Source of the DNA: a virus
Length of the DNA stretch: 23,482 nucleotides
Reading direction: 5' to 3' (one strand)
IMG/VR virus record: IMGVR_UViG_3300008120_000327
Span: 1 to 23,482 of that record
This document shows, one piece after another, positions 9,353 to 23,482 of this stretch; position 1 is the first letter of the stretch, and every line of letters starts with the position of its first letter. The translations under genes were made by a program, and so were the position numbers. The notes beneath the pieces are model-generated. The model worked only from the letters and a program-made list of their open reading frames with translations, was not told the DNA's origin and made no database searches.

Positions 9353-9781
9353 ATGAGTTTAAATTTATCTGACTTAGGATTACAGGAAGTAGTTAGGGAG
9401 ATTGTGAACACATTAAATGCGGGGTATGTTCACATTGTTCGTCCTTCTAACATTGCCTCTAATCCTTTTAACGCACCTAATCTAAACCCACCCTTGTTGG
9501 TAAATAGTTATCCTATAATCTCTTTTGAAGATGGTACTTTTCATGAGAGACTTCAATTTAGTTCAAATTCTGGAGGAATTTTCAGGTTTAAGATGGCTAT
9601 ACCCCAAGCTGAAATTCTAATGGGTGACTATGCTTTTATTGATTGGTCGGAAAACACCAGAATTGTATCAGCAGTCGTTAAGAACGTTAAATACAATTTA
9701 TCTGCTTTATCTACCGTTGTGGTTAATGCTAATGAAGGGGTTCCGTATAGTTGGTCTGATGTTCAAACTTTGTTACCATAG
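9353..9781 (+). CDS. Probable head-tail adaptor or minor structural protein (142 residues)
   Basis: A 142-residue protein. The N-terminus is an amphipathic helix ('LGLQEVVREIVNTLNAGYVHIVRP'), followed by a strand-rich middle ('RLQFSSNSGGIFRFKMAIP', 'YAFIDWSENTRIVSAVVKNV'). I recognise no specific family. The reason for the call is context: it opens a small-gene block that ends with a probable tail terminator (10019) and tube protein (10492), and in siphophages connector genes sit just before these. It could equally be a minor tail protein. The gene has its own upstream motif at 9314 and is followed after 10 bases by the next ATG, which uses AGGA at 9780-9783. Confidence 0.35.
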   Translation: MSLNLSDLGLQEVVREIVNTLNAGYVHIVRPSNIASNPFNAPNLNPPLLVNSYPIISFEDGTFHERLQFSSNSGGIFRFKMAIPQAEILMGDYAFIDWSENTRIVSAVVKNVKYNLSALSTVVVNANEGVPYSWSDVQTLLP

Positions 9782-9791
9782 GAATAATTTT

Positions 9792-10019
9792 ATGCCCGTC
9801 AATCGTAACCATGCTGAATTTGCTAGATTTAAAAAAGACAAAAACATTTCTTTGTTTAATAAAGTTGACTTTCTTACTCAACAGTTTGAGAATGCTAAAG
9901 TTACCCAAGAAGAAAACGAAGTTAAGGTAATTATTAAAAAAGATATAACAGAAGAATTACTTAACCCTGAAGTAAGACCTTATGTTGACAAACTTTCTCA
10001 AGAGCTTCGGAGGGTTTAA
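9792..10019 (+). CDS. Small basic/helical protein in connector block
   Basis: I choose the ATG at 9792 (75 residues) because AGGA at 9780-9783 precedes it at a normal spacing; the longer frame opening at 9624 would overlap the previous gene by more than 150 bases. The product is charged and helical, with 'NHAEFARFKKDKN' near the start and 'KVIIKKDITEELLNPEVRPYVDKLSQEL' towards the end. The stop overlaps the next start (TAATG at 10017-10021). Small genes like this commonly sit among head-tail connector genes; no function can be assigned. Confidence 0.5.
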   Translation: MPVNRNHAEFARFKKDKNISLFNKVDFLTQQFENAKVTQEENEVKVIIKKDITEELLNPEVRPYVDKLSQELRRV

Positions 10020-10435
10020 TGTTAAGTGTATCTAAATTAGAATCAGCATTATTTACTCTCTTAACTGAATTTTTTGTAAATAATGACATTACTTTTTCAG
10101 TTAATTACCCAAAAACAAAGAATGAGTTATCAAATGGAAAAACGGTTATTACTTTTTCTGCTATATCTGATGACATTGAAGGTTCCATTATTTCTAGAGA
10201 TATTATTCATCCTTTAGTTTCTTTTTTAGTTTTTAATACTAATTATGCTAAAAACCGTCAAATTCAAGAATCTTTGATTGAATATTTGCAGTCTTTAAAT
10301 CCTTTTAACCTTATTATGCTAAATCAAGAGTCTAATCATAGCTACTTAGCTCGTCGCATTCCTCCTATATTTGATAAATCCCTTGAAATTTTTATTAGTG
10401 GCGTTGATTATCGATTCCATATCCGAAATGCCTGA
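10019..10435 (+). CDS. Probable tail terminator protein (gpU-like position)
   Basis: A 138-residue protein. Its N-terminal helix ('LESALFTLLTEFF'), strand-rich middle ('KTVITFSAISDD', 'HPLVSFLVFNTN') and helix ('RQIQESLIEYLQ') match the alpha/beta layout of tail terminators. These cap the tube and join it to the head. The main support is position, immediately before the probable tube gene, and size (lambda gpU is 131 residues). No diagnostic motif is seen. It is coupled to the upstream gene by a TAATG overlap; a 56-base gap separates it from the tube gene. Confidence 0.4.
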   Translation: MLSVSKLESALFTLLTEFFVNNDITFSVNYPKTKNELSNGKTVITFSAISDDIEGSIISRDIIHPLVSFLVFNTNYAKNRQIQESLIEYLQSLNPFNLIMLNQESNHSYLARRIPPIFDKSLEIFISGVDYRFHIRNA

Positions 10436-10491
10436 AAACGCTCATTACCATAAATAAGTCTGCTTGAAAAAAAAAAGGATAAATTAAAACA

Positions 10492-11130
10492 ATGGCAAAA
10501 CGTTCCGGCCCATCTCAAATTGAAATTGGTACTGGTAATGATAAAATCACTATCACCAATGACCAACAAATGAATGATGCCACGCTGAGGATTGAAAGGG
10601 ATGAGTTTACCCTTAAAGACCAAAGTTCCTCTAAACCAGTTGGCTATATTAAAACGGGTATTGAAGGTAAATTGGAAATCTCTATCGCAGACATTTCTGC
10701 TCAACAAATTGCTCTTCTTTTTGGTGTGCCTCTCCTATCTGACACTGATACGGTTAATACCGTTAACTACACTATGCGAAAAGTAGCAGTTACAGACCAA
10801 GCAGGCACTCTGATTACTGGTCAAAAAGTTGTATTAAAACCTTATCCCGTTCTTACTGACCCCGGTACTACTGCCCCCACTACTACCACTTATAACGGTA
10901 AGACTTATGGTTCTATAGCTTTAGCCGAAGATGCTTTTGATGCTGATGTAGCCGATTATAAAGCTTGGGTTAATAACTGGGTAACTTTTCCTAACGGTGC
11001 ATTGACTTCTATCAATGGTACTAACTTGGCTTTTGGATTACAAACTCAACAAGAACTCAGAGTAACTCTCACATCTTTACCTGATAGCTCTGGTGTTCGG
11101 ATTATTTTTGGCGACGAAACGGTAGTTTAA
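10492..11130 (+). CDS. Probable major tail tube protein
   Basis: A 212-residue protein with a beta-rich pattern typical of tube proteins: 'DATLRIERDEFTLKDQ', 'VGYIKTGIEGKLEISIADISAQQIALLFGV' and, at the end, 'FGLQTQQELRVTLTSLPDSSGVRIIFG'. Residues ~128-165 (TDPGTTAPTTTTYNG, then 'ALAEDAFDADVADYKAWV') are a Thr-rich loop and a helix that may decorate the tube. Codon choice is less AT-rich than in neighbours, as expected for a strongly expressed structural gene. AAAAGGA at 10475-10481 serves as ribosome binding site. A strong rho-independent terminator follows at 11142-11190, which also marks it as a high-output gene. The alternative is a major head decoration protein. Confidence 0.5.
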   Translation: MAKRSGPSQIEIGTGNDKITITNDQQMNDATLRIERDEFTLKDQSSSKPVGYIKTGIEGKLEISIADISAQQIALLFGVPLLSDTDTVNTVNYTMRKVAVTDQAGTLITGQKVVLKPYPVLTDPGTTAPTTTTYNGKTYGSIALAEDAFDADVADYKAWVNNWVTFPNGALTSINGTNLAFGLQTQQELRVTLTSLPDSSGVRIIFGDETVV

Positions 11131-11141
11131 TTCAAATCAAG

Positions 11142-11190
11142 AAAAAAAAAGCCTCTTTCCTATACATTTAGGGGAAAGAGGGATTTTTTT
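11142..11190. terminator. Bidirectional rho-independent terminator
   Basis: A perfect 9-bp stem, CCTCTTTCC (11152-11160) with GGAAAGAGG (11173-11181), is flanked by a run of A on the left (11142-11150) and a run of T on the right (11184-11191). It can end transcription of the tube gene on the plus strand and of the small gene at 11190-11474 on the minus strand. The stop codon of the latter is inside the T run. Confidence 0.85.
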
Positions 11191-11474
11191 TAGCACTCTT
11201 TAAAAGAAAAATCTAAATTTTTTAATTTTTTGATTTTCTTTTCAGCAGATTTAATGGCAGAAGCTTTTCGGTTTTCAAAATCTTTTTTTGCTTCTTCGTA
11301 GGTCAAAAAGACTGACTTACCAATTTTTAGGGTAACAATAGCTCCTTGTGGGTTTTTGACAAAAGCTCCATATTTCAGGTTTGAAAAATATGAATTTGTT
11401 CGATAAACTCCAGATGTTAGAGCGTATCTAGTGACGAAAACTTTTTGCGGTTCTGGTTGGTATGGATTAGTCAT
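11190..11474 (-). CDS. Small phage 'moron' protein of the YALTSG type (copy A)
   Basis: A 94-residue product with 'KVFVTRYALTSGVYRT' at residues ~11-26 and a basic coiled C-terminal helix ('EAKKDFENRKASAIKSAEKKIKKLKNLDFSF'). I recall small phage proteins of unknown function with the same plan: a KYALTxG start and a C-terminal 'KIxSLxKQIxKLxxLxF' helix. It is a paralogue of the gene at 11549-11836; the last ~35 codons are nearly the same at both protein and DNA level. The gene lies on the strand opposite to the structural genes, the usual layout for a moron. A terminator sits just upstream (11486-11514), so it may depend on readthrough from the promoter near 11885. Function unknown. Confidence 0.65.
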   Translation of the reverse strand: MTNPYQPEPQKVFVTRYALTSGVYRTNSYFSNLKYGAFVKNPQGAIVTLKIGKSVFLTYEEAKKDFENRKASAIKSAEKKIKKLKNLDFSFKEC

Positions 11475-11485
11475 GGGAAATTTGG

Positions 11486-11514
11486 CTAAAAACCCCGTCT
11501 GTTTTACGGGGGGG
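11486..11514 (-). terminator. Rho-independent terminator between the two small minus-strand genes
   Basis: Read on the minus strand: CCCCGT, a 7-base loop, ACGGGG, then TTTTT. The stem is 11493-11498 with 11506-11511. It follows the 11549-11836 gene and precedes the start of copy A at 11474. It would limit transcription into copy A. Confidence 0.65.
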
Positions 11515-11548: not shown

Positions 11549-11836
11549 TTAGTCAATGCACTCTGTAAAAGAAAACTCTAAGGTTTTTAATTTTTTGATT
11601 TTCTTTTCAGCAGACTGAATGGCAGAAGCTTTTCGTTTTTCAAAATTTGCTTTTGCTTCTTCGACAGTAAAAAAGGCTGACTTTCCTAGAGTGTGCATAG
11701 TGTCCCGTCCAACCTGATCTTTTCCGCTTGCTAAACATCCACAATCTGAAATTTCGGCTTCAGTTAAATAAACCCCTGATGTTAGGGCGTATTCGGTGAC
11801 ATAGACTTTTAGCAGTTTTGGTTGTGGATTATTCAT
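11549..11836 (-). CDS. Small phage 'moron' protein of the YALTSG type (copy B)
   Basis: I choose the ATG at 11836, not the upstream opening at 11899, because a good promoter (11871-11899) overlaps the latter. The product has 95 residues: 'KLLKVYVTEYALTSGVYLTE' at the start, a Cys-containing middle ('ISDCGCLASG') missing from copy A, 'HTLGKSAFFTVEEAKANFEKR' and the basic coiled end 'KIKKLKTLEFSF'. It is 60-70% similar to copy A over the shared parts, so the two arose by duplication. It ends two codons later than copy A (…ECID). The promoter and the operator-like dyads suggest that this pair is controlled separately from the late genes, possibly expressed in the lysogen. No function is known to me. 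Confidence 0.65.
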   Translation of the reverse strand: MNNPQPKLLKVYVTEYALTSGVYLTEAEISDCGCLASGKDQVGRDTMHTLGKSAFFTVEEAKANFEKRKASAIQSAEKKIKKLKTLEFSFTECID

Positions 11837-11870
11837 TGTAAATTTTTTGGAGGGTTGATTAGCTGTTCCC

Positions 11871-11899
11871 AGTTTAACAGAATTTTTCCAAACTGTCAA
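11871..11899 (-). promoter_or_regulatory. Sigma70-type promoter for the minus-strand moron genes
   Basis: On the minus strand, TTGACA (11894-11899) is a perfect -35, followed by a 17-base spacer and TAAACT (11871-11876) preceded by TG at the extended -10 position (TGTTAAACT). The predicted start near 11864 leaves a leader of about 28 bases before the ATG at 11836. This is the best promoter match I found in the window. Confidence 0.65.
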
Positions 11900-11913
11900 C
11901 AGTTGATAACTGT
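11891..11913. promoter_or_regulatory. Operator-like dyads over the -35 box
   Basis: Three copies of AACTGT lie in alternating orientation: 11891-11896, 11899-11904 (inverted) and 11908-11913. They form the dyads AACTGT-CA-ACAGTT and CAGTT-GAT-AACTG. The first overlaps the -35 of the promoter at 11871-11899, which is what a repressor site would look like. No matching repressor gene is in the window. Confidence 0.5.
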
Positions 11914-12101
11914 ACTACTTAACCAAAATCAATAAAACTCAATCATATCAAGGGTTTTAACATTTTACACTTTAAAAAACACCATTTTAAAATCAATAAA
12001 ACTCAGTCATAGTATAGCTTAGACCTGTTTGTACTATGTAGTAGGGGGGATAACTTTATTTTTTTTATCCCTACCCTCTTTAATCATCGCATTTAAATAC
12101 T
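11911..12101 (+). repeat. Left arm of a ~190-bp inverted repeat
   Basis: This arm is almost the exact reverse complement of 12512-12703; by eye there are roughly 15 differences or small gaps over 191 bases. Inside it are two copies of a 23-base motif (AATCAATAAAACTC core) at 11925-11947 and 11989-12011, and a GGGATA…TATCCC dyad near 12050-12070. The outer end runs into the operator at 11891-11913. No protein is encoded. Confidence 0.9.
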
Positions 12102-12117
12102 AAAAAACATATACAAT

Positions 12118-12240
12118 CTAGAGTGAGCAGATTGAAGCATTTGGAAGCCTCAACGAGTCAAAACTGTTTTTTGCTTTGACAAGGTGGGGGTTTAGACTTT
12201 TTCGTTTATCAGCCTTTTCCCACACTTCAGAGCGGGTCAT
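12118..12240 (-). CDS. Possible 40-residue protein inside the foldback core
   Basis: From the ATG at 12240 the minus strand encodes 40 residues starting MTRSEVWEKADKRKS and continuing 'LNPHLVKAKNSFDSLR', ending at a TAG at 12118-12120. The composition is protein-like, basic and helix-forming, and a probable promoter lies about 200 bases upstream on the same strand. There is no clear ribosome binding site and I recognise no family. It may be real, the remnant of a larger gene, or chance. Confidence 0.25.
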   Translation of the reverse strand: MTRSEVWEKADKRKSLNPHLVKAKNSFDSLRLPNASICSL

Positions 12241-12361
12241 GATACTTTTACCATTAAACTAATTTGTAATGGTCTGAGGGGTAAAAATGGGTAAATGGGT
12301 GAATGTGGGCTAATTATATAAAATATATATTTAATTTTTGGTAGGCTGATTTGTGAATACC

Positions 12362-12381
12362 CTAGGATTAAAGTATCCTAG
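12362..12381. promoter_or_regulatory. Dyad CTAGGAT-6-ATCCTAG
   Basis: A perfect 7-bp inverted repeat with a 6-base centre, about 30-50 bases downstream of the predicted start of the minus-strand promoter at 12418-12447. It could be a repressor site or a hairpin in the leader RNA. Not followed by a T run, so not a terminator. Confidence 0.4.
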
Positions 12382-12417
12382 TATCCTATCCACCACTCTA
12401 TTTTTTGATATGTATAT

Positions 12418-12447
12418 AGCATAGCATAGGAATAAACAAAATGTCAA
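12418..12447 (-). promoter_or_regulatory. Probable sigma70-type promoter in the foldback core
   Basis: On the minus strand TTGACA (12442-12447) is a perfect -35; TATGCT (12418-12423) lies 18 bases further. The TATGCT box is duplicated (also at 12423-12428). It would transcribe towards the 40-codon reading frame and the left arm of the inverted repeat. Confidence 0.45.
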
Positions 12448-12511
12448 GAGGTAGTGGAAAAATATTTTTGGGGTAAAGGGGGTGGGAGGGAAGAAGGCAA
12501 AAAAGCATGAG

Positions 12512-12703
12512 AGTATTTAAATGCGATAATTAAAGAGGGTAGGGATAAAAAAAATAAAGTTATCCCCCCTACTACATAGTACAAACGGGTCTAAGCCATA
12601 CTATGACTGAGTTTTATTGATTTTAAAATGTTGTTTTTAAATTTCTAAAATGTTAAAACCCTTGATATGATTGAGTTTTATTGATTTTGAGCTAAGTAGT
12701 ACA
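12512..12703 (-). repeat. Right arm of a ~190-bp inverted repeat
   Basis: Reverse complement of 11911-12101 with few differences. It carries the matching two copies of the 23-base motif at 12602-12624 and 12666-12688. The similarity may extend a few bases outward (TTGAT next to TGTACTACTTA on both sides, with a 3-base gap in one). Confidence 0.9.
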
Positions 12704-12810
12704 ATCAATTTTGAGTATGTCAAAAAGTAGTTTAATTTAGAGATTTCTAAGTCCTTTGCTTTTTTCGCTCAAAATATGATTGACTTTCCACTTAAAGAAT
12801 TGATTTAATT
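12704..12810 (+). promoter_or_regulatory. Leader of the tail chaperone gene
   Basis: This stretch contains a looser copy of the recurrent intergenic motif (TCGCTCAAAA, 12765-12774) about 45 bases before the ATG at 12811, then TTGACT at 12780-12785. No good Shine-Dalgarno sequence precedes the ATG, and no clear -10 is at a proper distance. Confidence 0.3.
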
Positions 12811-13293
12811 ATGCCCGAAACTTTGCCTAAGACTTCTATAATTGCCCAATTTTTAGATGAAGGGGAACCATTAGGTACTTTAATGCTAGATGGGACGGAA
12901 TATAAAATCACAGCCCCTGAAGATTTATCTGAAGCCGAATATATTGAATATTTTCAAGCTAGAGCAGAAGCTATGGATGTTTTGCTTCTTGTTTACGGTG
13001 TTGAAAATGAAGATGGAGAACTAATACTTGAAAAAAGTGTAGGTGCTTCAGATTCAGTAAAAAAAGCGAAATTAGAAGCTTTAATGTATAAACCTGCCCG
13101 TCGAATGGTTGAAGCATTGTTAGGAGTACCGGCTGGGACATTTAAACGAAAAAGAAGTAAAACAGTGATGTCATTATACAATCATTGTCAACAACTTTTA
13201 GAAGAAAAACAAACTGTCGAGCCAGTCAACAAAAAACAAAGTGCTGAGGAAGATTTAGAAGTCCCTTTGGATGGGAGAATCGAGCAAGAGTAG
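12811..13293 (+). CDS. Tail assembly chaperone, gpG-like
   Basis: A 160-residue acidic protein: beta-rich start ('GTLMLDGTEYKITAPEDLSEAEYIEYF'), helical middle ('ARRMVEALLGVPAGTFKRKRS') and an acidic, Gln-rich end. Size, charge and the small overlapping gene behind it in the -1 frame fit the lambda G/GT arrangement. A heptamer CCCTTTG at 13263-13269 is in the right phase (C CCT TTG) only 24 bases before the stop, and the -1 frame is open from 13248 to 13604. Frameshifting would give a fusion of about 264 residues, close to lambda gpGT (279). These chaperones coat the tape-measure protein during tail building. In most siphophages the tape-measure gene comes next; here it does not. Confidence 0.6.
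   Translation: MPETLPKTSIIAQFLDEGEPLGTLMLDGTEYKITAPEDLSEAEYIEYFQARAEAMDVLLLVYGVENEDGELILEKSVGASDSVKKAKLEALMYKPARRMVEALLGVPAGTFKRKRSKTVMSLYNHCQQLLEEKQTVEPVNKKQSAEEDLEVPLDGRIEQE
13263..13269 (+). promoter_or_regulatory. Probable -1 ribosomal frameshift site CCCTTTG
   Basis: The heptamer follows the X XXY YYZ rule and is in phase with the 12811 reading frame (codons CCT, TTG). The -1 frame has its last upstream stop at 13245-13247, so only the segment 13248-13290 allows a shift, and this is a canonical site inside it. After the shift the frame reads G-W-E-N-R-A-R and continues to 13604. Confidence 0.6.
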
Positions 13294-13604
13294 TGAGATA
13301 TGTTAACACTCTTATCGATTGTCTACCAATATTCTATAGTTTTGGTATTTCTAGATTAGAACTTTTAAAAATGCGCCATTGGGAAGTTCTAGAAATCATA
13401 TCAGGACACTATAAACATCGTGCTAGGTTAGTGCTTGATTTGACCGATGCTGTAACTTTAGGGGCTGGATGGGGTGATGCCGAATCTAAAGAACAAATGC
13501 AACGTGATTTAGTGGGTAAAGCTGGATTCCCCCGTCGTAAAACGAAAGTACCTAAAAAGTTTACAGGAAAATCTTGGACTTCTGATTTGATGACCGCCAT
13601 TTAA
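13293..13604 (+). CDS. gpT-like part of the tail assembly chaperone (made mainly by -1 frameshift)
   Basis: The frame from 13293 has 103 codons if a GTG overlapping the upstream TAG (TAGTG) is used, but it is also open back to 13248. The sequence 'LLKMRHWEVLEIISGHYKHRARLVLDLTDAVTLGAGWGDAESKEQMQRDL' is a helix-rich, partly basic segment like the T part of G-T fusions. The absence of a separate ribosome binding site and the slippery heptamer upstream favour expression as a G-T fusion over independent initiation. The GTG overlap could still allow some coupled reinitiation. Confidence 0.55.
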   Translation: MRYVNTLIDCLPIFYSFGISRLELLKMRHWEVLEIISGHYKHRARLVLDLTDAVTLGAGWGDAESKEQMQRDLVGKAGFPRRKTKVPKKFTGKSWTSDLMTAI

Positions 13605-13620
13605 TGGGATACAAGTCCCA
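13603..13620 (+). repeat. Short hairpin shared with the left IS200/IS605 remnant
   Basis: TGGGA-TACAAG-TCCCA follows the stop of the T gene. The 13 bases AATGGGATACAAG (13603-13615) are the reverse complement of 468-480 in the left IS200/IS605 remnant. It may be a fragment of such an element or chance. Confidence 0.25.
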
Positions 13621-13661
13621 ACCTTGAAAACAAATAGCCAAATTAAGTATCTCAAAATGGA

Positions 13662-14204
13662 ATGTCTAAACTAATTAAATTAACTAATCCTGAAGAAGTT
13701 CCTGAGTTAATAAAAGAGGCTATTTGTTATTATAGGGGTTGTTATCCTCAATATTCAGATGCTGAAATAGCCAGACGAGTAAATAAAAATCTTGATTGCA
13801 TTAATATAGACGAAAAACTTGTTTTAGATGTTTTAGAATTAGAGCCAGACCGTCTTTTTAAACATAAATTTGGAGGAGCGGAATCTGTAAAATTGGGGAT
13901 ACTTTTAGGGGAACTAAAATTTTCAACTTTACACTCTAGAGTCAAATTTTTAACCGAGATAATGATAATGGGTAAAGAAGGATATGAAGAACAAAAAGCC
14001 ACTAACAGAGGTGATATTGTTACTTTGACAGCTAAAAACCTCAATGCCTCATTAGAAGCACATAAACAATTAGGAATGATTCTCGAAAAAGTTGATTCTC
14101 TGACAGAACGGGAAGAAGAAGTTTTTTTAGAAGTTGATGTTTACCCCCAATTTTTACCGACTACTAACCTTGCTTCTAATGATGAAGACGATGTTTTGAA
14201 CTGA
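13662..14204 (+). CDS. Unknown phage protein, candidate small terminase subunit
   Basis: A 180-residue protein. Residues ~30-45 ('PQYSDAEIARRVNKNLD') look like a helix-turn-helix of the kind found in small terminases. It is followed by a helical region and then an acidic C-terminus ('EREEEVFLEVDVYPQF', 'NDEDDVLN'). 'VTLTAKNLNASLEAHKQLGMILEKVD' resembles the oligomerisation helices of such proteins. Small terminases bind the packaging site and load TerL; the gene lies upstream of terL but is separated from it by phoH, mazG and an IS remnant. The call rests on fold impression and place in the module. It could also be a regulatory DNA-binding protein. Confidence 0.35.
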   Translation: MSKLIKLTNPEEVPELIKEAICYYRGCYPQYSDAEIARRVNKNLDCINIDEKLVLDVLELEPDRLFKHKFGGAESVKLGILLGELKFSTLHSRVKFLTEIMIMGKEGYEEQKATNRGDIVTLTAKNLNASLEAHKQLGMILEKVDSLTEREEEVFLEVDVYPQFLPTTNLASNDEDDVLN

Positions 14205-14253
14205 AAGTAACCACGCCCATTTCAAAAGTAATCCTTTATTTAAAACCTACCAA

Positions 14254-14892
14254 ATGGTCAACATTGCAAAAGGTCTTAAACCCAAGAACCACTCGCAAGC
14301 AAAATTCTTACAGTCCATTCGAGAAAATACCATTACGTTAGGAATTGGTGAAGCAGGGACAGGAAAAACGTTATTAGCCATGTATGCGGCTATTTTAGCT
14401 ATAAATAATCCTGACTCACCTATTGATTCTATTCTTTATGTCAGACCATTTGTTAATGAACCAGATGAACAAGATATTGGGGCTTTACCCGGTGAATACG
14501 AGGAAAAAATTGATTTTTTAGGACTTCCTCTTTGGACTAATTTATCTGAAATTTGTTCCCCTGATGAGCTTAGAAAGTTTAAAACCAGATTAGAAATTTC
14601 ACATATTGGAAAACTTAAAGGGGCATCATTATCTAACACATTTATTATTTTTGATGAAGCAGAAGATGCGACTCAAAGACTTTTTAATTGTGTAATCACG
14701 AGAATATCACACGGGTCAAAACTTGTTATTATTGGCGACCCATCCCAAAGTAGTCTTTATTGCGGAGGCTTTTTTCATGTTGCGGCACATAGATTATTTG
14801 ATACTCCAGATGTAGGGATTGTTTGGTTTCCTAAAGGTTCCTGTGTAAGACACCCTATAATTCCCCATGTATTAAGTGCTTTGGCATCTTAA
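14254..14892 (+). CDS. phoH: PhoH-like ATPase
   Basis: A 212-residue P-loop protein. Walker A is GEAGTGKT at residues 32-39, Walker B is 'IIFDEAEDAT' at 131-140 (family consensus FIILDEAQN.T), and the sensor motif GDPSQSS lies at 161-167. 'LYVRPFVN' (61-68) and 'GALPGEYEEKI' (76-86) match the VRP and 'lPGd..eK' elements of PhoH proteins. The family consists of ATPases linked to RNA metabolism and phosphate starvation and is widespread as an auxiliary gene in phages, especially those of cyanobacteria. The second Walker B position reads AED rather than AQN, a small deviation. The gene is on the plus strand and faces the mazG-like gene; the hairpin that follows serves the opposite strand. Confidence 0.88.
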   Translation: MVNIAKGLKPKNHSQAKFLQSIRENTITLGIGEAGTGKTLLAMYAAILAINNPDSPIDSILYVRPFVNEPDEQDIGALPGEYEEKIDFLGLPLWTNLSEICSPDELRKFKTRLEISHIGKLKGASLSNTFIIFDEAEDATQRLFNCVITRISHGSKLVIIGDPSQSSLYCGGFFHVAAHRLFDTPDVGIVWFPKGSCVRHPIIPHVLSALAS

Positions 14893-14894
14893 TC

Positions 14895-14925
14895 AAAAAA
14901 AAAGTTACCAACTTTTGTTGGCAAC
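14895..14925 (-). terminator. Rho-independent terminator of the MazG-like gene
   Basis: On the minus strand, GTTGCCAA-CAAAAG-TTGGTAAC is followed by nine T. The stem has one mismatch. It lies 30 bases past the stop of the MazG-like gene (14956) and just after the PhoH stop; on the plus strand no T run follows, so it acts on the minus strand. Confidence 0.75.
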
Positions 14926-14955
14926 AGTTCACCGAGCTTAATAAGTTGACAAACC

Positions 14956-15588
14956 TTAACGGAAATCACCGTCTCCCTGAATAGTACCCGCATTTTTGCG
15001 TTTTGTCAACTTATTAGTATTATCGTCCATGACAGTTTTCAAATCACTATTCAAGTCATAGGCTAGTTCGTCAATTATCAAGAACAGAAGGAATAGGTAG
15101 GATTCACAAAAAACCTGTAAAAGAGACAATTCTTGATAATTGGAGTCACCACGAACATATTTTTTGATAAGCCCTGCTAATGTTCCCGACGCAAAATTAA
15201 GAGCCATATAAGTCGTGAAAAAATCAGATTCTTCAAGACTTTTATTAGATTTCGACTCTAAATAATTTTGAGCATTAACTAGAAAAATTTTGACAGAGCG
15301 ATAACCGAGGTGAATACACAAACGAGTCACATAGTAAAGTATATCGCCTAGTTCTAAAAGCAACGTGGTTCGTTCTAAGTCTAAAACACTTTCTTCGACC
15401 TCTAGCGCACCGTCTTGGTGACCAATAAGCAAGGCAAAAGAGTCGTTAGCAAATTCGTTGATTTCACTAATCAAACCGAGAGTAACGTATTCCAGTGATT
15501 TTTCTGAAGGATATACGGCGGTAGTGCTTGTGAACTCCCAGTAAGAAGCTAGAGCATTTACAAATTCATCGGAAATGGATTGACGCAT
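14956..15588 (-). CDS. MazG-like nucleoside triphosphate pyrophosphohydrolase
   Basis: A 210-residue protein with the metal-binding signature of the all-alpha NTP pyrophosphohydrolases: 'GLISEINEFA' (E42-x-x-E45) and 'LLLELGDILYYV' (E79-x-x-D82). The C-terminal 'KLTKRKNAGTIQGDGDFR' matches the usual MazG-like ending (KL..RK..GTI.G.GD.R). These enzymes hydrolyse (d)NTPs or (p)ppGpp-like alarmones. Phage copies are thought to adjust host nucleotide pools during infection. A stretch of ~50 residues between the second motif and the C-terminus is longer than in short family members. The gene runs opposite to the rest of the module and has its own terminator, so it behaves like an independent cassette. 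Codon use is less AT-rich than that of the structural genes. Confidence 0.82.
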   Translation of the reverse strand: MRQSISDEFVNALASYWEFTSTTAVYPSEKSLEYVTLGLISEINEFANDSFALLIGHQDGALEVEESVLDLERTTLLLELGDILYYVTRLCIHLGYRSVKIFLVNAQNYLESKSNKSLEESDFFTTYMALNFASGTLAGLIKKYVRGDSNYQELSLLQVFCESYLFLLFLIIDELAYDLNSDLKTVMDDNTNKLTKRKNAGTIQGDGDFR

Positions 15589-15617
15589 ATCTTGTATTAG
15601 CTAAGATTAAATTATGC

Positions 15618-15870: not shown

Positions 15871-18726
15871 ATGTTAAAAAAGGATAAAACATTAAAGTTA
15901 TATTTGCACCCAGGTCAACAAACAGTGTTTGTTAGTCCTAAAAGATTTAAAGTATTAGTGAGTTCCCGAAGATACGGTAAATCGAGACTCATGATAACAA
16001 TGATTATTGATAAGGCACTAAATTATAAAGGGGCGTATGATAAAGCATCACCACCAGTAGTTTTATTAGGAATGCCATCTTTAAAACAAGCCAAACAAAT
16101 TCATTGGAATCCTTTAGTAAAATTATTAGAGGGGCATCCTGGAATAGAGAGGATTTATAAATCTGAATGTCGAATTTCATTTAAAGGAAACAAACCAGAT
16201 ATAATTTTAAGGGGTTTAAATGAGGACAATGGGGACAATTGTAGGGGGTTAAAAATTTATTTCGCAGGATTAGATGAAATGCAAGACGTTAAACCTATAG
16301 CATGGACGGAAGTTATTATGCCAGCATTAATTGATACAAAAGGGTCATGTGCTTTATTGACAGGTTGTGTGGCTCCTAACACCTTTGTCTTACCTAGACA
16401 AGGCATGACAGAAATTGTTGAATTTAATCAGGATAGTTGTGCAAAAGAGTATCAACCGCTAAAAGATGTTGAACTTTATGGACTCAATAATGAATTTCAT
16501 AAAGCAGATTCTTTTTTTAATAATGGATATACCGATACCAAAATCATCACATCTTCTTTTGGATTCACTTTAGAAGCTTCTTTAAACCATCCTATTTGGA
16601 CAAAAAATGGCTGGAAAAAAATGGAAGAACTGAAAGAGGGGGACACAGTGGCTATAGCACATGGTATGGACATTTGGGGTACTAAAGACCCTATAGATGG
16701 TTTCAAAATCAAAAGACAATATGTTCCTAAAACAAAAGGTTGGCTACAACCTAATCAAGGCATGACCAAAGATTTTGCTTATTTTCTTGGTCTATGGTTT
16801 TCTCAAGGAACCCACAAAAAACAAAATGGTAAGTATTACATTTCCGTAAAAACTACTACTCAACAAATGAGAGAGTTTCTAGAAAGTGGTAAGATTTTAG
16901 GGGCTATTTTTAAACAAGATGTAGGAAATGTTTGGTCGTATGTAGATAGCGATTTAGTAGAGTTACTAAAGCATATAGGGATGTCCACTGTGAGTCGGAG
17001 AAGAAGAACCTTACCATTATGGTTGTTTCAAGGGCGTAAATCTTGGGCTATCTCTTTTATTCAAGGGTATATGGACATTGCTGGTTCGATTGGTACTACA
17101 GGTAACAGAGTAGCAAAAATTATCCATTTCACTTGTAATAAAACATTAGCTCAACAATTTCAATTGTTACTTTCTAACTTAGGGGTAATTGCAAAAGTAT
17201 TTTTATTGCCACATGACCCAGAAATGGCTCAATTAGAACTAACTGGTTCACATTTTGATACTTATTGTCAATTAATTGGTTTTGGGTCTGATAACAAAAA
17301 AACAAGTAGCCTAGGAGTACAAAAGTTAAACCCTCCCGATGAACCGTTTAATTTTAATGACTATTTTTGGGACACTATAGAATCAATTAGTGACTCTGAA
17401 AATCAGACTTATGATTTTACAGTACCTAACACAAATTCTTTTTGGAGTAACGGGTTTATTAGTCATAATACACCTAAAGGTTATGGAACTTTTTTTCACA
17501 GTTTGTACGAAAATGGTGATAAATACAAAGATTGGGGTGCTTTCCATCGTACAATTTATGACAACCCCTTTATTCCTCGTGAAGAAATTGAACGTATAAA
17601 AGAATCTTTACCAGAAAAAGTATTTAGACAAGAATGTTTGGCTTCTTGGGAAAATTTTGATGGTCAAATTTTTTCTGCCTTATCTACTGACAATATTATT
17701 TCTGATGAGAATTTACCTACTTACTTTGAACAAGTATATTTAGGTGTTGACTGGGGAGATGTCAATCCTGCTTTAGTTGTGGTGGGTAAAATGGGTAACA
17801 CTTACTTTATTATTGATTTCTGGGAAAATCCTAACCCTAATACTGCCATTGAACAACGAGTACACAACGACAAAGCTCTTCAGTTTGTGAGTGAACACAA
17901 TGTGAGCCGTGCATTTGCTGACCCTTCACAACCCGGTCGAATTTTAACTATGAGAAAGTCTGGGATTCCTAAACTTATGGGGGGTTATAACCGTGTTAGT
18001 GAAGGTAATGGTATTGTAAACACTTTACTTTATCAAAAACGCTTAATGATAGCCGAATCTTGCAGAAGGGTTTATGAAGATATGGGAGCATATCATCGGG
18101 CATCCAAAGAAGGATTTATTAAAGAAGAAGTCGCTGAATCTCAACAAGACCATCTTTGTTTTGTGGCTGGCACACAGGTTTTAACAGAAACAGGATGGCA
18201 AAATATAGAAAGCCTGAAAGTTAAAGACAAAGTGTGGTCTTCTAATGGTTTAAAAAATATTACTTTCACTGGTTCCCGATTGGCAGAAACGATAGAAGTT
18301 AAAGATTACAATTCTTCTGCTATTGTGCGCTGTACTCCAGACCACCCCTTTTACACGAATAATGGTTTGATAAGTGCCGAGAACCTTAGTGTTATGAACC
18401 ATTTAAACCATCTTGACCAATCTCAATGGGAGTCACTTATTGGAATTTCTAATTTAACAGATACTCTATGGTCAAGTCCAGCCCTAGAATGTGTAGGTAA
18501 ATGCTCAATAAACCGAGTATATAACATAGAAGTCGAGGAGTCACACAATTACTTCATCAAAATTGGCTCAAACGCAGTCTTAGTCAGTAATTGCGATGCT
18601 TTAAGATATGTGTTAGCAACTTTAGAACACAAAAACATCGAAAACATTATCCCAGAGGGTTCTGTCATTACTACACCAGAAAAACCCGTTACAAAGTCTA
18701 ACTCTTTATTTGCTGGTTTAATTTAA
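15871..18726 (+). CDS. terL: Terminase large subunit with two inteins
   Basis: The precursor has 951 residues; removing the inteins (166-533 and 763-907) leaves a 438-residue terminase, a normal size. The ATPase has a Walker A-like SSRRYGKS (31-38), Walker B 'FAGLDEMQ' (131-138) and the 'TG/TPKGYG' coupling motif, which intein 1 interrupts. The RNase H-like nuclease has 'LGVDWGD' (624-630, Asp627 first metal ligand), 'AFADPS' and the final 'DHL/CDALRY' motif, which intein 2 interrupts. TerL cuts concatemeric DNA and pumps it through the portal. Neither intein breaks the frame, and active enzyme needs both splicing steps. No clear Shine-Dalgarno sequence exists (AGGG at 15861-15864 is weak). 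A terminator-like hairpin separates it from the portal gene. Confidence 0.92.
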   Translation: MLKKDKTLKLYLHPGQQTVFVSPKRFKVLVSSRRYGKSRLMITMIIDKALNYKGAYDKASPPVVLLGMPSLKQAKQIHWNPLVKLLEGHPGIERIYKSECRISFKGNKPDIILRGLNEDNGDNCRGLKIYFAGLDEMQDVKPIAWTEVIMPALIDTKGSCALLTGCVAPNTFVLPRQGMTEIVEFNQDSCAKEYQPLKDVELYGLNNEFHKADSFFNNGYTDTKIITSSFGFTLEASLNHPIWTKNGWKKMEELKEGDTVAIAHGMDIWGTKDPIDGFKIKRQYVPKTKGWLQPNQGMTKDFAYFLGLWFSQGTHKKQNGKYYISVKTTTQQMREFLESGKILGAIFKQDVGNVWSYVDSDLVELLKHIGMSTVSRRRRTLPLWLFQGRKSWAISFIQGYMDIAGSIGTTGNRVAKIIHFTCNKTLAQQFQLLLSNLGVIAKVFLLPHDPEMAQLELTGSHFDTYCQLIGFGSDNKKTSSLGVQKLNPPDEPFNFNDYFWDTIESISDSENQTYDFTVPNTNSFWSNGFISHNTPKGYGTFFHSLYENGDKYKDWGAFHRTIYDNPFIPREEIERIKESLPEKVFRQECLASWENFDGQIFSALSTDNIISDENLPTYFEQVYLGVDWGDVNPALVVVGKMGNTYFIIDFWENPNPNTAIEQRVHNDKALQFVSEHNVSRAFADPSQPGRILTMRKSGIPKLMGGYNRVSEGNGIVNTLLYQKRLMIAESCRRVYEDMGAYHRASKEGFIKEEVAESQQDHLCFVAGTQVLTETGWQNIESLKVKDKVWSSNGLKNITFTGSRLAETIEVKDYNSSAIVRCTPDHPFYTNNGLISAENLSVMNHLNHLDQSQWESLIGISNLTDTLWSSPALECVGKCSINRVYNIEVEESHNYFIKIGSNAVLVSNCDALRYVLATLEHKNIENIIPEGSVITTPEKPVTKSNSLFAGLI
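16366..17469 (+). other. Intein 1 (368 residues) with degenerate LAGLIDADG endonuclease
   Basis: It starts with Cys166 ('CVAPNTFVLPRQG', block A), has a block B 'ASLNHPIWT' with the conserved His, block F 'YDFTVPNTNSFWSNG' and ends in 'ISHN' (penultimate His, terminal Asn533), followed by Thr+1. Splicing residues are therefore intact. The homing endonuclease region shows both LAGLIDADG helices: 'FLGLWFSQG' (305-313) and 'IQGYMDIAG' (397-405). The acidic residue that binds the catalytic metal is Gln312 (CAA) in the first and Ala404 (GCT) in the second, so the endonuclease is expected to be inactive. The insertion lies between Gly and Thr of the ATPase coupling motif TG/TPKG. Confidence 0.9.
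18157..18591 (+). other. Intein 2 (145 residues), mini-intein without endonuclease
   Basis: It starts with Cys763 ('CFVAGTQVLTETGW', block A), has block B 'VRCTPDHPFYT' (T..H present), block F 'RVYNIEVEESHNYF' and ends 'NAVLVSN' with Asn907, followed by Cys+1. The size and spacing are those of a Hint-only mini-intein. The residue before the terminal Asn is Ser906, where most inteins have His. It is inserted into the nuclease motif DHL/CDALRY of TerL, inside the active site. Confidence 0.9.
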
Positions 18727-18737
18727 GCCTAAAATCG

Positions 18738-18765
18738 CCCAACACTCTAGTAGCGTTGGGTTTTT
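18738..18765 (+). terminator. Terminator-like hairpin between terL and the portal gene
   Basis: CCCAAC (18738-18743), 11-base loop, GTTGGG (18755-18760), then TTTTT. It ends two bases before the ATG of the portal gene at 18768. The stem is 6 bp with some extra pairing in the loop (ACT/AGT-like). It has the form of an intrinsic terminator and also covers the place of a ribosome binding site. Confidence 0.65.
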
Positions 18766-18767
18766 AA

Positions 18768-20675
18768 ATGGAATATCCAAAAAAAGTAGCATTTGAAATT
18801 TTAGAATCTGTCCATCCTGAAGTTGAACAAAATCAGGAACTTTTTAATATGACTGACGACTTGTTAGGCGGCGGGCAAAGATTAAAAGATAATTTAGAGA
18901 AATATTTAATTAAAAAACCTGATGAAGATGCTGAAATTTACAAATACCGTAAAAGACTCTTCACTTATGTTCCTATTTTAGGGCAATGTTTAGCTCAATT
19001 ATTGAATAGGATGACTGCCTCTAATCATACTATTAATGGTTTTTCAGAAAGCCCTAAACGCAAAGAATTTTGGTTTAAATTTAGAGAATCTATTAACGGT
19101 AATCATCAAAAAGAAAAAGCTTTTATTAAAGATGTTTTCTTTAAACTTTTAAAATATGGAAAAGTATACGCAGTAATAGAAAAAGATTATTCAGACATTT
19201 TACCGACTAATAAAAAAGAAGAAGAAGAATTAGGTTTAATGCCTTATATTGCGTTGTATGACCCTCGTTCTGTTACTCACTATCAAGAACTTGATGGAAA
19301 GCTAAAATGGATAAAAATTAGAGAATTAGAAACCAATTATAGCCCTGTAGGTGAAACGCAATATTTTCTGAAATGGACATTTATCGATGATACTTTTATT
19401 ACTAGCTATCGTTGCCCAATGATTCTTAGTAATACTGGAAAACTTGCACCCGATGTCCAATCGGAGTTTAATTCAAGTTCTTATATGATTCCTTTATTTA
19501 AACAAGTTGCTCATGAAAGAGGCACTATTCCCGTTGTAAATATTCAAATTCCTGAAAATCTTTGGGTCACTAAAGAAGCTATATTTTTAGTTTTGGAGCA
19601 TATTAGGGTTCATAATAATTTGACATATACCGCAAATGTTGCTGGTCAAATTCAAAGATTATTTACTCCTATGTCAGAATCCGCAGATAAAATGGTTGAC
19701 TTGGAAGAAGCCAGAGGTCAAACAGGAAACCATCGAGTATTAATTGGACAAGGATTTACTTTTAATGAAACTACTGGTACGGCTATTAATACCATTGCTG
19801 GCTATCTAGGAAAACTAGAAAGTAGAATTAAAGATTTAATTTTTTCTAATGGTATTTCTGCTGGTGATGATAGACCAATGCAAGAATCTGGCGTAGCTAA
19901 AAGTATGGACTTTATTAGTCAAGAACAAGCTCTTGCCGCTTACGGTGAACAATTATTGTTTTTTCTTGAAGAATGTTATAAATTAGTTGCTTTAACTCAG
20001 GGTTTTAGTAAAGAGGAAATTTCTCAAATTTCAGTTTCTGGTCTTAATGAATTTGTTTTAGATACTGTTGACACAAAAGTAAATAGAATTTCCCTTTTAG
20101 AGGCTTTAGACACTCCTATTTCCAATACTGCTATGCGCCTAGTGGTTGAAGACCTACAACGAGCTTTAACCCCTAACGCTTCAATTCTTGAACAAGAAAT
20201 TATTCATAACGAAACGTTACAAGACTTCTCAGCAGTCGACCATCCTGAACTTGGTTTAGAAGAACTTACGTCGTTAGTCTTAAACCAAATCGTTTCTGTT
20301 TCTACTGCTCAAAAATTATTAGGCTTTGACCCCTCTGTAGAATGGGACAGAATTAAAGAACAAATGCTTGAAATGCAAGCTATTCAAAACCCTGAAGGTA
20401 AAAACTCACCTACAACTGAAACTGAAGAAACTGAAGAAACTGAAGAAACTGAAGAAACTGTTGACCCCTTTGAAACTGTGGTAAATCTAGCTAATGCCTT
20501 AGCTACTCTTTCTAATAAAAAAACTGAAGATATTCTTGCTTCTGTTAATTTTAATGAAGATATTTCATCTGACGAAGCAAAACAAATAATTATGATATTA
20601 GCTAAAGAATTAGGTAAATTAATTGACGCTACACCAGAAGAAGTTTTAGAGGGGGTTGGTTATGAGGCGGAATAG
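18768..20675 (+). CDS. Portal-like protein
   Basis: A 635-residue protein directly after terL, the usual place of the portal. Features consistent with portal proteins include an N-terminal helix-rich part ('KYRKRLFTYVPILGQCLAQLLNRM', 61-84), a beta-rich wing ('LKYGKVYAVIEKDY', 'ALYDPRSVTHYQEL'), the long helical stem ('YLGKLESRIKDLIFSNGISAGDDRPMQESGVAKSMDF') and a C-terminal helical crown. The tail carries an acidic TEE repeat (about 550-565) from a 9-base microsatellite and then a region with acidic helices. Portals form the dodecameric ring through which TerL packages DNA. The start at 18768 has no Shine-Dalgarno sequence; a hairpin lies just upstream. The stop overlaps the next gene. Confidence 0.7.
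   Translation: MEYPKKVAFEILESVHPEVEQNQELFNMTDDLLGGGQRLKDNLEKYLIKKPDEDAEIYKYRKRLFTYVPILGQCLAQLLNRMTASNHTINGFSESPKRKEFWFKFRESINGNHQKEKAFIKDVFFKLLKYGKVYAVIEKDYSDILPTNKKEEEELGLMPYIALYDPRSVTHYQELDGKLKWIKIRELETNYSPVGETQYFLKWTFIDDTFITSYRCPMILSNTGKLAPDVQSEFNSSSYMIPLFKQVAHERGTIPVVNIQIPENLWVTKEAIFLVLEHIRVHNNLTYTANVAGQIQRLFTPMSESADKMVDLEEARGQTGNHRVLIGQGFTFNETTGTAINTIAGYLGKLESRIKDLIFSNGISAGDDRPMQESGVAKSMDFISQEQALAAYGEQLLFFLEECYKLVALTQGFSKEEISQISVSGLNEFVLDTVDTKVNRISLLEALDTPISNTAMRLVVEDLQRALTPNASILEQEIIHNETLQDFSAVDHPELGLEELTSLVLNQIVSVSTAQKLLGFDPSVEWDRIKEQMLEMQAIQNPEGKNSPTTETEETEETEETEETVDPFETVVNLANALATLSNKKTEDILASVNFNEDISSDEAKQIIMILAKELGKLIDATPEEVLEGVGYEAE
20414..20460 (+). repeat. Short tandem repeat ACTGAAGAA in the portal-like gene
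   Basis: The 9-base unit ACTGAAGAA is repeated four times, with a partial unit on each side, and encodes TEE repeats. It keeps the frame, since the unit is a multiple of three. Such a repeat can vary in copy number by slippage without breaking the gene. Confidence 0.85.
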
Positions 20676-23205
20676 AAAGGCTAAAGGCTTAAAAATAAAT
20701 ACCAAAGCCAAAATTAAAGGGTCAATTGCCTATCGCACAAAAGCTTTTGGTAAGTTTAACATATACAGAACATTTAAAGAATCTGATGTTAAACGAGATG
20801 CTAGTGGGAAATTTACATTTGAGGGAGCCGTAAGTAAAGCTTATGGTAAATTTAATCGTCAACAAATAAATGAAAAGATAGCTAATGATAAAAAATCTCA
20901 ACTTAAAAATCAAAATCAGGAGTCTAAATCTAATCTTATAAATCAGGATTCCAAAAGTGCAAAAAAAAATCAACCTAACTCAAAATTGATTCGCATATCT
21001 TTTGCTAAAAAAATTAAGCCTCTTTTAGAAAAAATTGAAGAAATAGTTACTCAAAAAAGTAAACCCTTAAGTTCCAAAGGTACAGCTTTACCTAAAGATT
21101 CTAGAGGTAAAATAAAACCAGCCGGTATTATGCTAAAATCGGGTGAGCGAAACTTTTCTGTTATGCTAAACAATCTTAAAGAATTTAGAGATGCTTTTGG
21201 AGAATTTTCAACAAAACAAATTTTATTGTCTTATAATATTAGTCTGCTTACTGCTGAAAATAGAAAAAAACTCTTAGATGAATATCGAAGATTTCTGAAT
21301 TTTAAGGCTCCTGAACTTTTTGCTGACGGTCAAGTTTACAATTCTTTAAAAGATATTAGAGCGGCTTTAATTAAACAAAACGACGTAGACGCATTAAACA
21401 AAGAATTTTTTGAAAGTAGGTTAGTTGCTTCTTTTTTAAGTTCTACGACTTCGGCAAAATTAAGCACTGTTCCAGAATATAAAGTTAATGAACTATTTAA
21501 AGATATTAAATCTATCTATGATTCTGCAAATTCAAAGCTAAAAAACTTTAGAGCCGCAAAAGAAGCTGGTACATATAAGGTCGAAAAAGTTGCTGACAAA
21601 GAGCAAATAGCACAGTTCCTAAAATCAGCTATAGACTCCATTAACATTCAAAAAGAAGAACTTATACGAAATGCTTTAATTGCTAACGAATCCGCAAAAG
21701 TACCCAAATCTGATAAAGAAATAATAAAAGAAATAGAAACAGAAACAAAACTATTAATTGAGTATGTTACAAAACTTGGTAGAAATGCTGAAGTCGTAGG
21801 TGATAGAACTATTCTTAGTAATAAACTCCAAATTAAGGATACGTTTTTAAGAAAATTACCAATTTTAGAATTAATGCAATTACGGGAACAATTACGTTTT
21901 GAAATTGCTAATGATGTTGATAAGGCAAAAATTCAACTTTTTCTTTTTAACTTGGAAAAAGATGATATTTATAAAGTCCCTATTACTAAAATTAAACAGG
22001 GGTATCAACTCCATCATGTAAACCAATTTGCATCTTTTGATGTTAATGGTAATCCTTATTTTGCCATTGAAAAAGCTTATGGTAGTAATAGTAAAGATTC
22101 ACTTAAAGCTATTTCCGAAGAAGATTTGTTAGGCTTAACCGTAAACTATGATGAAAATGGTAATATATCTTATTTTTCTAAAGATTATTTCTCGGAAAAA
22201 GGCGCAAAAATAAAAGGTTCTGTTTTTTTTAAAGATTTACCATTAAGTTATTATCGCAATAATTGGGAGTTAATTGTAGACAAAACCGACAACACTATCA
22301 TTGGGTTTAAAAATCCTGAATCTGGAGAAACTGTTTCTTGGGACAAAGCTATTTCTGAAATGAACCACTCGCCTAAGTTATATCTGGATTTACCCATTGC
22401 TTATCATGAGAAGTCTAGAGTAAACAGTTTATATGGTTTATTACACCCTGTCGAAAATTACACCATAAACCCTGATAATGAGATTCAAAAATCTCAACTA
22501 TCAAACCTTTCTGAATTAGCTTCTAAATTAAACGTCTCTAAAAAACTTCAGACAGAATTAGAAGAAGGACTCAAAACAGGAAAGTTAAAAGCTGGTAAAG
22601 GTCAAGTAGAGTCTGAAAAACATGATGAGGTTCGTGATAATTTATACTTGTATCGTCGTATTGAACTTTATGAACAAGTTGAAAAAGCAGTAATATCTCT
22701 ACTTGAAGAAATACCCTCAGAAAGAGAAAAAGCTATTATCTCTAATTCCGCTAAGTATAATTACTACAACAATGGAATCAGACCTTCCTATGTCAATAAT
22801 TTGAGTAAATTAGAAGAAAGATTAGCTTTTTTAACCCAGTCTGCGGCTTCAATAAATGATTTGTTACCTTCAGACCAAAATTCTTCCCAAAGTGAGGCTA
22901 TTAAAAATCTTCAAGAAAAAATAAAGAACACAAAAAACGTGATTAAAGAAATTGATAAGGTGACTAAATTCATTATCAATCAAGGACTTAACGCTGACTA
23001 TATTAGAAATCACACACCAAGCCAATTCTTTGACTCTGCTATAAAAAATCCTAGAATTTGGGGACTTCCTGCTAATGCTACCCCCAAAATGGTGATGAAT
23101 GCTATAATGAATGGACTTAATGGCTCGACTCTATCAGACAACTTCCCTAATTTAGACGACCAATTAAAACCTTTGCCTAAAGAACCAGATATTTCCGATG
23201 AATAA
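20662..23205 (+). CDS. Large Lys-rich phage head-module protein of unknown function
   Basis: I choose the ATG at 20662 with GAGGGGG at 20649-20655 as ribosome binding site; the frame could open at TTG 20656. The product has 847 residues. The N-terminus is very basic ('MRRNRKAKGLKINTKAKIKG'), followed by 'ESDVKRDASGKFT', which resembles the 'DE…R…G.F' signatures at the start of minor head or protease-type phage proteins. Long Lys/Glu/Gln-rich helical stretches follow, which look coiled-coil-like (for example around residues 130-270 and 660-780). A beta-rich island lies near residues 445-600 ('YQLHHVNQFASFDVNG', 'YDENGNISYFSKDY'). Position after the portal suggests a minor head, scaffold-related or internal virion protein. 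I find no MuF, protease or nuclease motif I trust. Confidence 0.5.
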   Translation: MRRNRKAKGLKINTKAKIKGSIAYRTKAFGKFNIYRTFKESDVKRDASGKFTFEGAVSKAYGKFNRQQINEKIANDKKSQLKNQNQESKSNLINQDSKSAKKNQPNSKLIRISFAKKIKPLLEKIEEIVTQKSKPLSSKGTALPKDSRGKIKPAGIMLKSGERNFSVMLNNLKEFRDAFGEFSTKQILLSYNISLLTAENRKKLLDEYRRFLNFKAPELFADGQVYNSLKDIRAALIKQNDVDALNKEFFESRLVASFLSSTTSAKLSTVPEYKVNELFKDIKSIYDSANSKLKNFRAAKEAGTYKVEKVADKEQIAQFLKSAIDSINIQKEELIRNALIANESAKVPKSDKEIIKEIETETKLLIEYVTKLGRNAEVVGDRTILSNKLQIKDTFLRKLPILELMQLREQLRFEIANDVDKAKIQLFLFNLEKDDIYKVPITKIKQGYQLHHVNQFASFDVNGNPYFAIEKAYGSNSKDSLKAISEEDLLGLTVNYDENGNISYFSKDYFSEKGAKIKGSVFFKDLPLSYYRNNWELIVDKTDNTIIGFKNPESGETVSWDKAISEMNHSPKLYLDLPIAYHEKSRVNSLYGLLHPVENYTINPDNEIQKSQLSNLSELASKLNVSKKLQTELEEGLKTGKLKAGKGQVESEKHDEVRDNLYLYRRIELYEQVEKAVISLLEEIPSEREKAIISNSAKYNYYNNGIRPSYVNNLSKLEERLAFLTQSAASINDLLPSDQNSSQSEAIKNLQEKIKNTKNVIKEIDKVTKFIINQGLNADYIRNHTPSQFFDSAIKNPRIWGLPANATPKMVMNAIMNGLNGSTLSDNFPNLDDQLKPLPKEPDISDE

Positions 23206-23482
23206 CAATATCGATTTAACCATCTACTCCCCTTATAATGCTTCACTAATGTTGGCTGTTAATAATCTTTCTGAAGATTTTTGGCTTAATGTGAATGAAT
23301 ACTCCGACAATCAAAATTATTCCTTTTTTGGGTATGCTTTTGGTGGTGGTTCTGCTAAACATATTCAAAATCCTGATAAGTGGATTTTGATTAAAGATAC
23401 TGATTTGCTCTCTATACGCCCTTCTGAAAATCCTAACGCCACTCCAGATTCTGTCTACGAATGGGATGTCTATAACGGCTTA
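23198..23482 (+). CDS. Start of a further phage gene (3' end outside window)
   Basis: From the ATG at 23198, overlapping the stop of the previous gene in another frame, 95 codons are open to the end of the window. The sequence begins MNNNIDLTIYSPYNA and contains 'DFWLNVNEYSDNQNYSFFGYAFGGG' and 'DKWILIKDTDLLSIRP'. The overlap with the preceding stop (GATGAATAA) and similar codon use support it as a real gene of the same operon. The product is unknown. Confidence 0.55.
   Translation, partial: MNNNIDLTIYSPYNASLMLAVNNLSEDFWLNVNEYSDNQNYSFFGYAFGGGSAKHIQNPDKWILIKDTDLLSIRPSENPNATPDSVYEWDVYNGL

Follow-up and report, generated by a model that had tools for sequence, protein, structure and literature searches.

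A viral large terminase with two putative inteins, one in the ATPase coupling motif and one in nuclease motif III

Introduction

The closest described system is that of Microcystis phage Mic1 (MN013189). In the sections drawn on here, its 2020 genome paper reports two inteins in the large terminase (TerL), with Cys/Asn ends and Thr/Cys extein residues, and its authors propose biosensor control of packaging; the same sections mention a homing endonuclease domain and make no mention of lost acids or of a survey of intein relatives (PMC7156551). Inteins in TerL are also known from mycobacteriophages, for which the consulted part of a survey gives seven sites (a–g), all in the ATPase domain; five inteins tested there spliced quickly in a reporter and two tested cut DNA (PMC5050341). 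One of these sites, TerL6-f, falls within the putative ATPase coupling (C) motif (PMC5050341, same part), as does intein 1 below, a likeness of site. In the delta-group crAss-like phage OBYQ01000140, the TerL is described, in the excerpted text, as three in-frame parts with two inteins between them; these are of the Hint-Hop type in a TAG-recoded gene, unlike those treated here (PMC7886860).

The subject of this report is the TerL gene in a 23,482-base stretch of viral DNA (the window), which is a close relative of Mic1. The Mic1 TerL (QDB71467.1) is the same gene with the same two inteins at the same sites; compared with the window, its extein is 93% identical over 96% of the length, its intein 1 is 97% identical and its intein 2 is 88% identical. 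The double-intein finding and the idea of packaging control are already published for Mic1. What is added here is an apparently dead endonuclease, a sister lineage with another pair of inteins and the recurrence of inteins at the nuclease motif.

The terminase gene and its joints

The gene and its parts are as follows, in window positions; here and below, a slash in a motif marks a border between extein and intein or, once the intein is removed, the joint.

15871..18726, + strand: TerL precursor gene, 951 aa with two inteins; one 951-codon frame, with Pfam, NCBIfam and PHROGs matches
15871..16365, + strand: N-extein, 165 aa; ATPase domain, in which the P-loop is VSSRRYGKS and Walker B is LDE (sequence and alignment)
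16366..17469, + strand: intein 1, 368 aa (aa 166-533); Cys1, HN end, Thr+1; in the ATPase coupling motif TG/TPKG (profiles and sequence)
16687..17349, + strand: LAGLIDADG endonuclease region of intein 1, apparently dead (drawn by eye)
17470..18156, + strand: middle extein, 229 aa; end of the ATPase, then the greater part of the RNase H-like nuclease domain (sequence and alignment)
18157..18591, + strand: intein 2, a mini-intein of 145 aa (aa 763-907); Cys1, Ser-Asn end, Cys+1; in nuclease motif III, DHL/CDALRY (profiles and sequence)
18592..18726, + strand: C-extein, 44 aa, and stop (sequence)
18768..20675, + strand: portal protein gene, adjoining TerL (phrog_145, 4e-32)

A sequence-only reading of the window had seen two Hint modules in a single 951-residue frame, and the profile searches bear this out. 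Pfam gives Intein_splicing (3e-16), PT-HINT (5e-9), Hint_2 (7e-7), LAGLIDADG_3 (5e-5) and Terminase_6N (1e-4) in that frame; NCBIfam gives the intein N-terminal and C-terminal splicing regions, with two matches apiece; and PHROGs assigns the frame to the terminase large subunit (4e-32). The splicing profile PF14890 has two matches within the 23,482 bases of the window, both inside TerL. By its motifs, the extein is a large terminase of the T4/P22 type: P-loop, Walker B, coupling motif and RNase H-like nuclease motifs follow in order, with the portal gene adjacent. Within this gene, the inteins are not distinguishable from the extein by base composition (GC 0.351 for the extein, 0.343 for intein 1 and 0.375 for intein 2).

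The borders that the sequence-only reading had drawn, at TG/TPKG in the coupling motif and at DHL/CDALRY in the final nuclease motif, proved exact, and the interval that it gave, 16366-18591, begins with the first residue of intein 1 and ends with the last residue of intein 2. Removal of aa 166-533 and 763-907 leaves precisely the 438 residues of extein that it had counted. It had further made a gap-free alignment of the joined extein to intein-free TerLs a check of its call, and the alignment with seven such proteins has no gap at either joint: TG/TPKG is placed against G/TPK or T/TPK, and DHL/CDALRY against the corresponding nuclease motif. An eighth TerL, L022, is not counted among the seven and matches too in a separate alignment. 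The solved terminases 5oe8 and 5oea likewise align with the joined extein across both joints, with no gap. Other intein-free TerLs came from the wider extein search (L044, 40% identical) and from a genome scan (L076, 41%). Although it has no intein, L044 reads DHVCDGNRY at the second joint, with a Cys in the +1 position.

Conservation in the close clade and a sister lineage

Eighteen close-clade TerLs were compared: those of the window, Mic1 and 16 viral contigs. The contigs were obtained with a query in which all of the search peptides lie in the extein, so the presence of inteins did not select them. Both inteins are in open frame in all 18 (L007 is cut at its 5' end), and the four joints, TG/CV, SHN/TP, HL/CF and VSN/CD, are invariant. 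Nei-Gojobori dN/dS over all pairs, with 95% ranges from a codon bootstrap, is 0.095 (0.057-0.144) for the extein, 0.154 (0.097-0.230) for intein 1 and 0.307 (0.183-0.481) for intein 2, although the pairs are related and these ranges are too narrow; ten representatives less than 99% identical give 0.091, 0.168 and 0.300, respectively. Both inteins are thus constrained, intein 2 clearly less so than the extein. No intein-free member of the close clade was found among the viral contigs, either with the extein-only query or with the wider extein alignment. Neither of these retrieved the 70%-identical TerLs described next, so their reach is limited, and intein-free alleles at such a distance could be missed too.

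A sister lineage (L159-L163, in which the TerL frame of L160 is the same as that of L159) has a coupling-motif intein and, in its P-loop (RRFGK/N...THN/SR), another intein that is 147 aa long. Nuclease motif III is empty (RDHFCDALRY) in all five contigs. Because they were retrieved by the wide intein-1 search, they are silent on how often the coupling motif is occupied. The joined exteins of the sister lineage and the window are 70% identical and the inteins 39%. Class 3 inteins are recognized in full by a W-C-T signature, and the P-loop mini-intein, which has no Cys1, has W, C and T at the class 3 positions (NHEW, RTKC and IPTHN). The Cys at F:4 is listed as a class 3 feature in the portion of the literature cited here (PMC4031507), and this intein may be described as class-3-like. 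The comparison of the two lineages suggests that intein 1 either predates their split or has moved between them, and that the Mic1 clade acquired intein 2 or the sister lineage lost it.

Splicing, retention and the question of control

We consider it probable (about 0.88) that the gene encodes a TerL precursor with two separately entered, self-removing inteins. The translation product would be a 951-aa precursor, and each intein in it would fold as a Hint domain and excise itself. The peptide bond upstream would be taken over by Cys1, the N-extein would pass to the +1 residue (Thr for intein 1 and Cys for intein 2), and the terminal Asn would cyclise, with the exteins joining to form a 438-aa motor-nuclease. 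Neither the coupling motif of the ATPase nor the active site of the nuclease would be continuous until both inteins had gone. Intein 1 would come from a TerL coupling-motif lineage, its homing endonuclease having most likely died before the split from the sister lineage, and intein 2 would be a mini-intein with relatives at nuclease motif III of other TerLs. Both would now be immobile and fixed in the clade, and they would be retained because imprecise deletion at these catalytic motifs would kill the enzyme, only precise loss being tolerated. The sequence, the joints, their conservation, the lost catalytic residues and the relatives are observed; from these we infer splicing, its speed and the reason for retention.

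It follows from the insertion sites that an active TerL would depend on two splicing events. Dependence is not the same as control. An alternative is that splicing is regulated, one or both inteins serving as a sensor or interlock under which TerL stays inactive until late in infection or until a cue such as redox state or temperature. The Mic1 authors put regulation forward in the part of their paper used here (PMC7156551), and it would suit both the placement of one intein in each of two catalytic centres and the persistence of the double state in all 18 close-clade sequences despite the dead endonuclease. However, intein 2 is the least constrained part of the gene, relatives with intein-free TerLs exist, and the sister lineage has a different pair; the quick splicing of five TerL inteins in the mycobacteriophage reporter (PMC5050341, in the part consulted) also counts against it. 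A packaging checkpoint, which the sequence-only reading had raised as well, is possible, and we regard regulated splicing as unlikely.

Intein 2 and nuclease motif III

Intein 2 has the Cys1, C-terminal Asn and +1 Cys of a class 1 intein, with VSN/C in all 18 sequences. Its block F contains a His, and Ser stands at the penultimate place, so that it ends in SN, not HN; inteins that have no penultimate His are described, in part of the literature, as able to splice. Together with intein 1, which is treated below, it appears to have what class 1 splicing needs. Among solved structures its best match is the bacterial intein-like (BIL) domain 2lwy (E 1e-8), a member by sequence of the Hint family, like intein 2 itself. 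Relatives also occur on plasmids, in seven records, four of which are annotated as polymorphic-toxin HINT proteins.

These matches raise the question of whether intein 2 cleaves, as a BIL domain does, and leaves a truncated terminase. The 2lwy and PT-HINT matches, the BIL-like or toxin-type Hint domains among its phage and plasmid relatives and the SN end all point that way. BIL domains are, however, described as having no +1 nucleophile in the relevant part of PMC4031507, whereas Cys+1 is present in intein 2 in 18 of 18 sequences. Loss of the C-extein would, in addition, take away part of nuclease motif III, and SN ends recur among the nuclease-motif TerL inteins (six of 11, window included). 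We therefore consider cleavage without splicing very improbable.

Nine of the 43 loci that the intein-2 search gave outside the close clade are TerLs with an insertion at, or a few residues from, nuclease motif III (L100-L104, L109 and L123-L125, of which L101 and L102 resemble L100, and L123 and L125 resemble L124). The other 34 concern other places or proteins, or are too short to tell; most relatives of intein 2 would thus lie outside TerL nuclease motif III. Pfam places L103 in GpA_ATPase, L100 and L104 in Terminase_3, L124 in Terminase_6N and L109 in Terminase_6C. The TerL of L104 has, besides the intein in its nuclease motif, one in the P-loop region (GGGK/A...THN/S, delimited by eye), which starts with Ala.

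Searches of named phages with two nuclease-motif inteins added five cases. Four are annotated as terminase large subunits: Acinetobacter phage Highwayman (L225), a Rhodobacteraceae phage (L226), Tetrasphaera phage TJE1 (L227) and BK063680, or vir335 (L228), whose host is given as Methanomassiliicoccales (archaea). The fifth (L229) is unannotated and was judged by motif alone. The same searches also matched non-terminase genes, such as methylases and helicases. This brings the distinct further TerLs with an intein at or near nuclease motif III to ten. L227 and L124 have exactly the joint of the window, DHx/CDA, from which the remaining cases depart in the motif or by one to a few residues. The intein of vir335 is a mini-intein of 132 aa, which lies in nuclease motif III and ends in VSN/C as in the window; the lengths of the nine others range from 270 to 327 aa. 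A literature search found no published description of a nuclease-motif intein group, except for the single Mic1 case.

In a tree of intein-2-like Hint parts, labelled by site, three label changes are needed, compared with 9.2 in shuffles (0 of 500 as low), the nuclease-motif set having been named after the flanks were seen. The nuclease-motif inteins do not form one branch in this tree, and an AU test does not reject a single clade for them (p 0.358). Identical Hint parts were entered once; six loci with no C-terminal end found by pattern were dropped (L127, L128, L129, L130, L137 and L140), near-copies or fragments were left out (L101, L102, L123, L125, L134 and L136), and the ends used for L116 and L118 look wrong.

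Intein 1 and the coupling-motif lineage

Intein 1 likewise has the Cys1, C-terminal Asn, +1 nucleophile and splicing blocks of class 1, with SHN/T in all 18 sequences. The penultimate His is present, and an Asn stands at the position of the block-F His; that His is found in eight of nine coupling-motif inteins outside the close clade in the same alignment. AlphaFold2 models of both inteins, from 13-row alignments, were too poor to use (mean pLDDT 37 for intein 1 and 40 for intein 2) and were set aside.

In LAGLIDADG endonucleases, the acid before the final G of each motif is catalytic. In all 18 close-clade sequences, the motifs of intein 1 are LGLW..QG and MDIAG, so that the catalytic positions are held by Q (codon 16804-16806 in the window) and A (codon 17080-17082), and neither motif has the acid that an active homing endonuclease has in each of the two. 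The seven other coupling-motif inteins aligned (L164-L169 and L212) have E and D at these positions; L173, a further coupling-motif case, is outside this alignment. The sequence-only reading had spoken of an endonuclease remnant, which was right and can be put more sharply: both catalytic acids are gone throughout the clade, and intein 1 looks dead as a homing element. In the sister lineage the coupling-motif intein is shorter (285-291 aa) and also has Q and A at the catalytic positions in the two sequences aligned (L159 and L161). On the simplest reading, the endonuclease was most likely dead already when the window and sister lineages parted, although each lineage may have lost both acids separately, or an already dead intein may have been transferred. 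That intein 1 is still mobile, homing by cutting intein-free alleles, is the least probable of the alternatives: the whole LAGLIDADG region is under constraint (dN/dS 0.155, the same as for the Hint part, with limits by eye) and both acids are kept in seven related inteins at the same site, but none of the 18 close-clade sequences retains either acid, and the extein searches, within their reach, met no intein-free allele near the clade.

The wider intein-1 search gave 152 loci, of which the best 80 were kept, 16 of them being the close clade and 64 others. A TerL profile was mapped onto 108 reading frames (the window, the 43 loci of the intein-2 search and these 64) and matched 27. Among the 27, nine have two insertions of more than 100 aa in one TerL: the window, L159-L163, L166, L168 and L212. 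Thirty-four inteins with both ends known (the window, three from the close clade and 30 of the 64 other loci) were placed in a tree, in which they group by insertion site: 14 at the coupling motif, 10 at the P-loop and 10 at a third site, with two label changes in all, the minimum possible. The 14 coupling-motif inteins all fall on one side of a branch with an SH-aLRT value of 97, in a quick tree made without bootstrap; L173 and L213 have long branches and eight rows are odd in composition. Since the rows group by site, intein 1 belongs to a site-specific TerL coupling-motif lineage. A plasmid search found no relative of intein 1.

The claim of the sequence-only reading that there were two invasions holds up on three counts: inteins 1 and 2 have no significant similarity to one another, their relatives differ, and the sister lineage has intein 1 with an empty intein-2 site. 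Its remark that inteins favour catalytic motifs is supported by other TerLs, in which inteins recur at the P-loop, at the coupling motif and at the nuclease motif.

Other features of the window

An inverted repeat of 178 nt, 96% complementary, has its arms at 11924-12101 and 12512-12689, and Mic1 has 13 matches of at least 145 nt to one of the arms, with both orientations represented. Window 534-11499 and 11549-12108 correspond to Mic1 34574-23605 and 23340-22774 on the opposite strand, and 12212-15604 and 15871-23482 to Mic1 89111-92501 and 1-7602 on the same strand. This arrangement appears to be an inversion, or a similar rearrangement, relative to Mic1, with a breakpoint at the inverted repeat. 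A direct repeat of 129 nt, 88% identical (11193-11321 and 11558-11686), lies just after the counterpart of the Mic1 tail tube gene. Two genes lie just upstream of TerL, as they do in Mic1:

14254-14889, + strand: PhoH-like gene (PF02562, 1e-40)
14956-15588, - strand: MazG-like gene

Searches of the 23,482 bases gave no tRNA, nor any Rfam family that reached its gathering score.

Implications

A wider picture can be drawn, although we hold it to be improbable. Nuclease motif III would be a recurrent target in bacterial and archaeal tailed viruses, served by related, often Ser-Asn-ending inteins. The Mic1 clade would have domesticated one such mini-intein, along with a coupling-motif intein long since dead, as a two-key interlock, and motor and nuclease would both stay off until splicing was complete.

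The nuclease-motif cases extend the sites of TerL inteins beyond the ATPase domain, to which the consulted part of the 2016 mycobacteriophage survey confines them (PMC5050341). At a single site, the coupling-motif lineage has both endonucleases that seem active and dead ones. TerLs with different intein pairs at three catalytic motifs, P-loop and coupling motif in L159-L163 and coupling and nuclease motifs in the Mic1 clade, would provide a natural comparison for the effects of such pairs on packaging.
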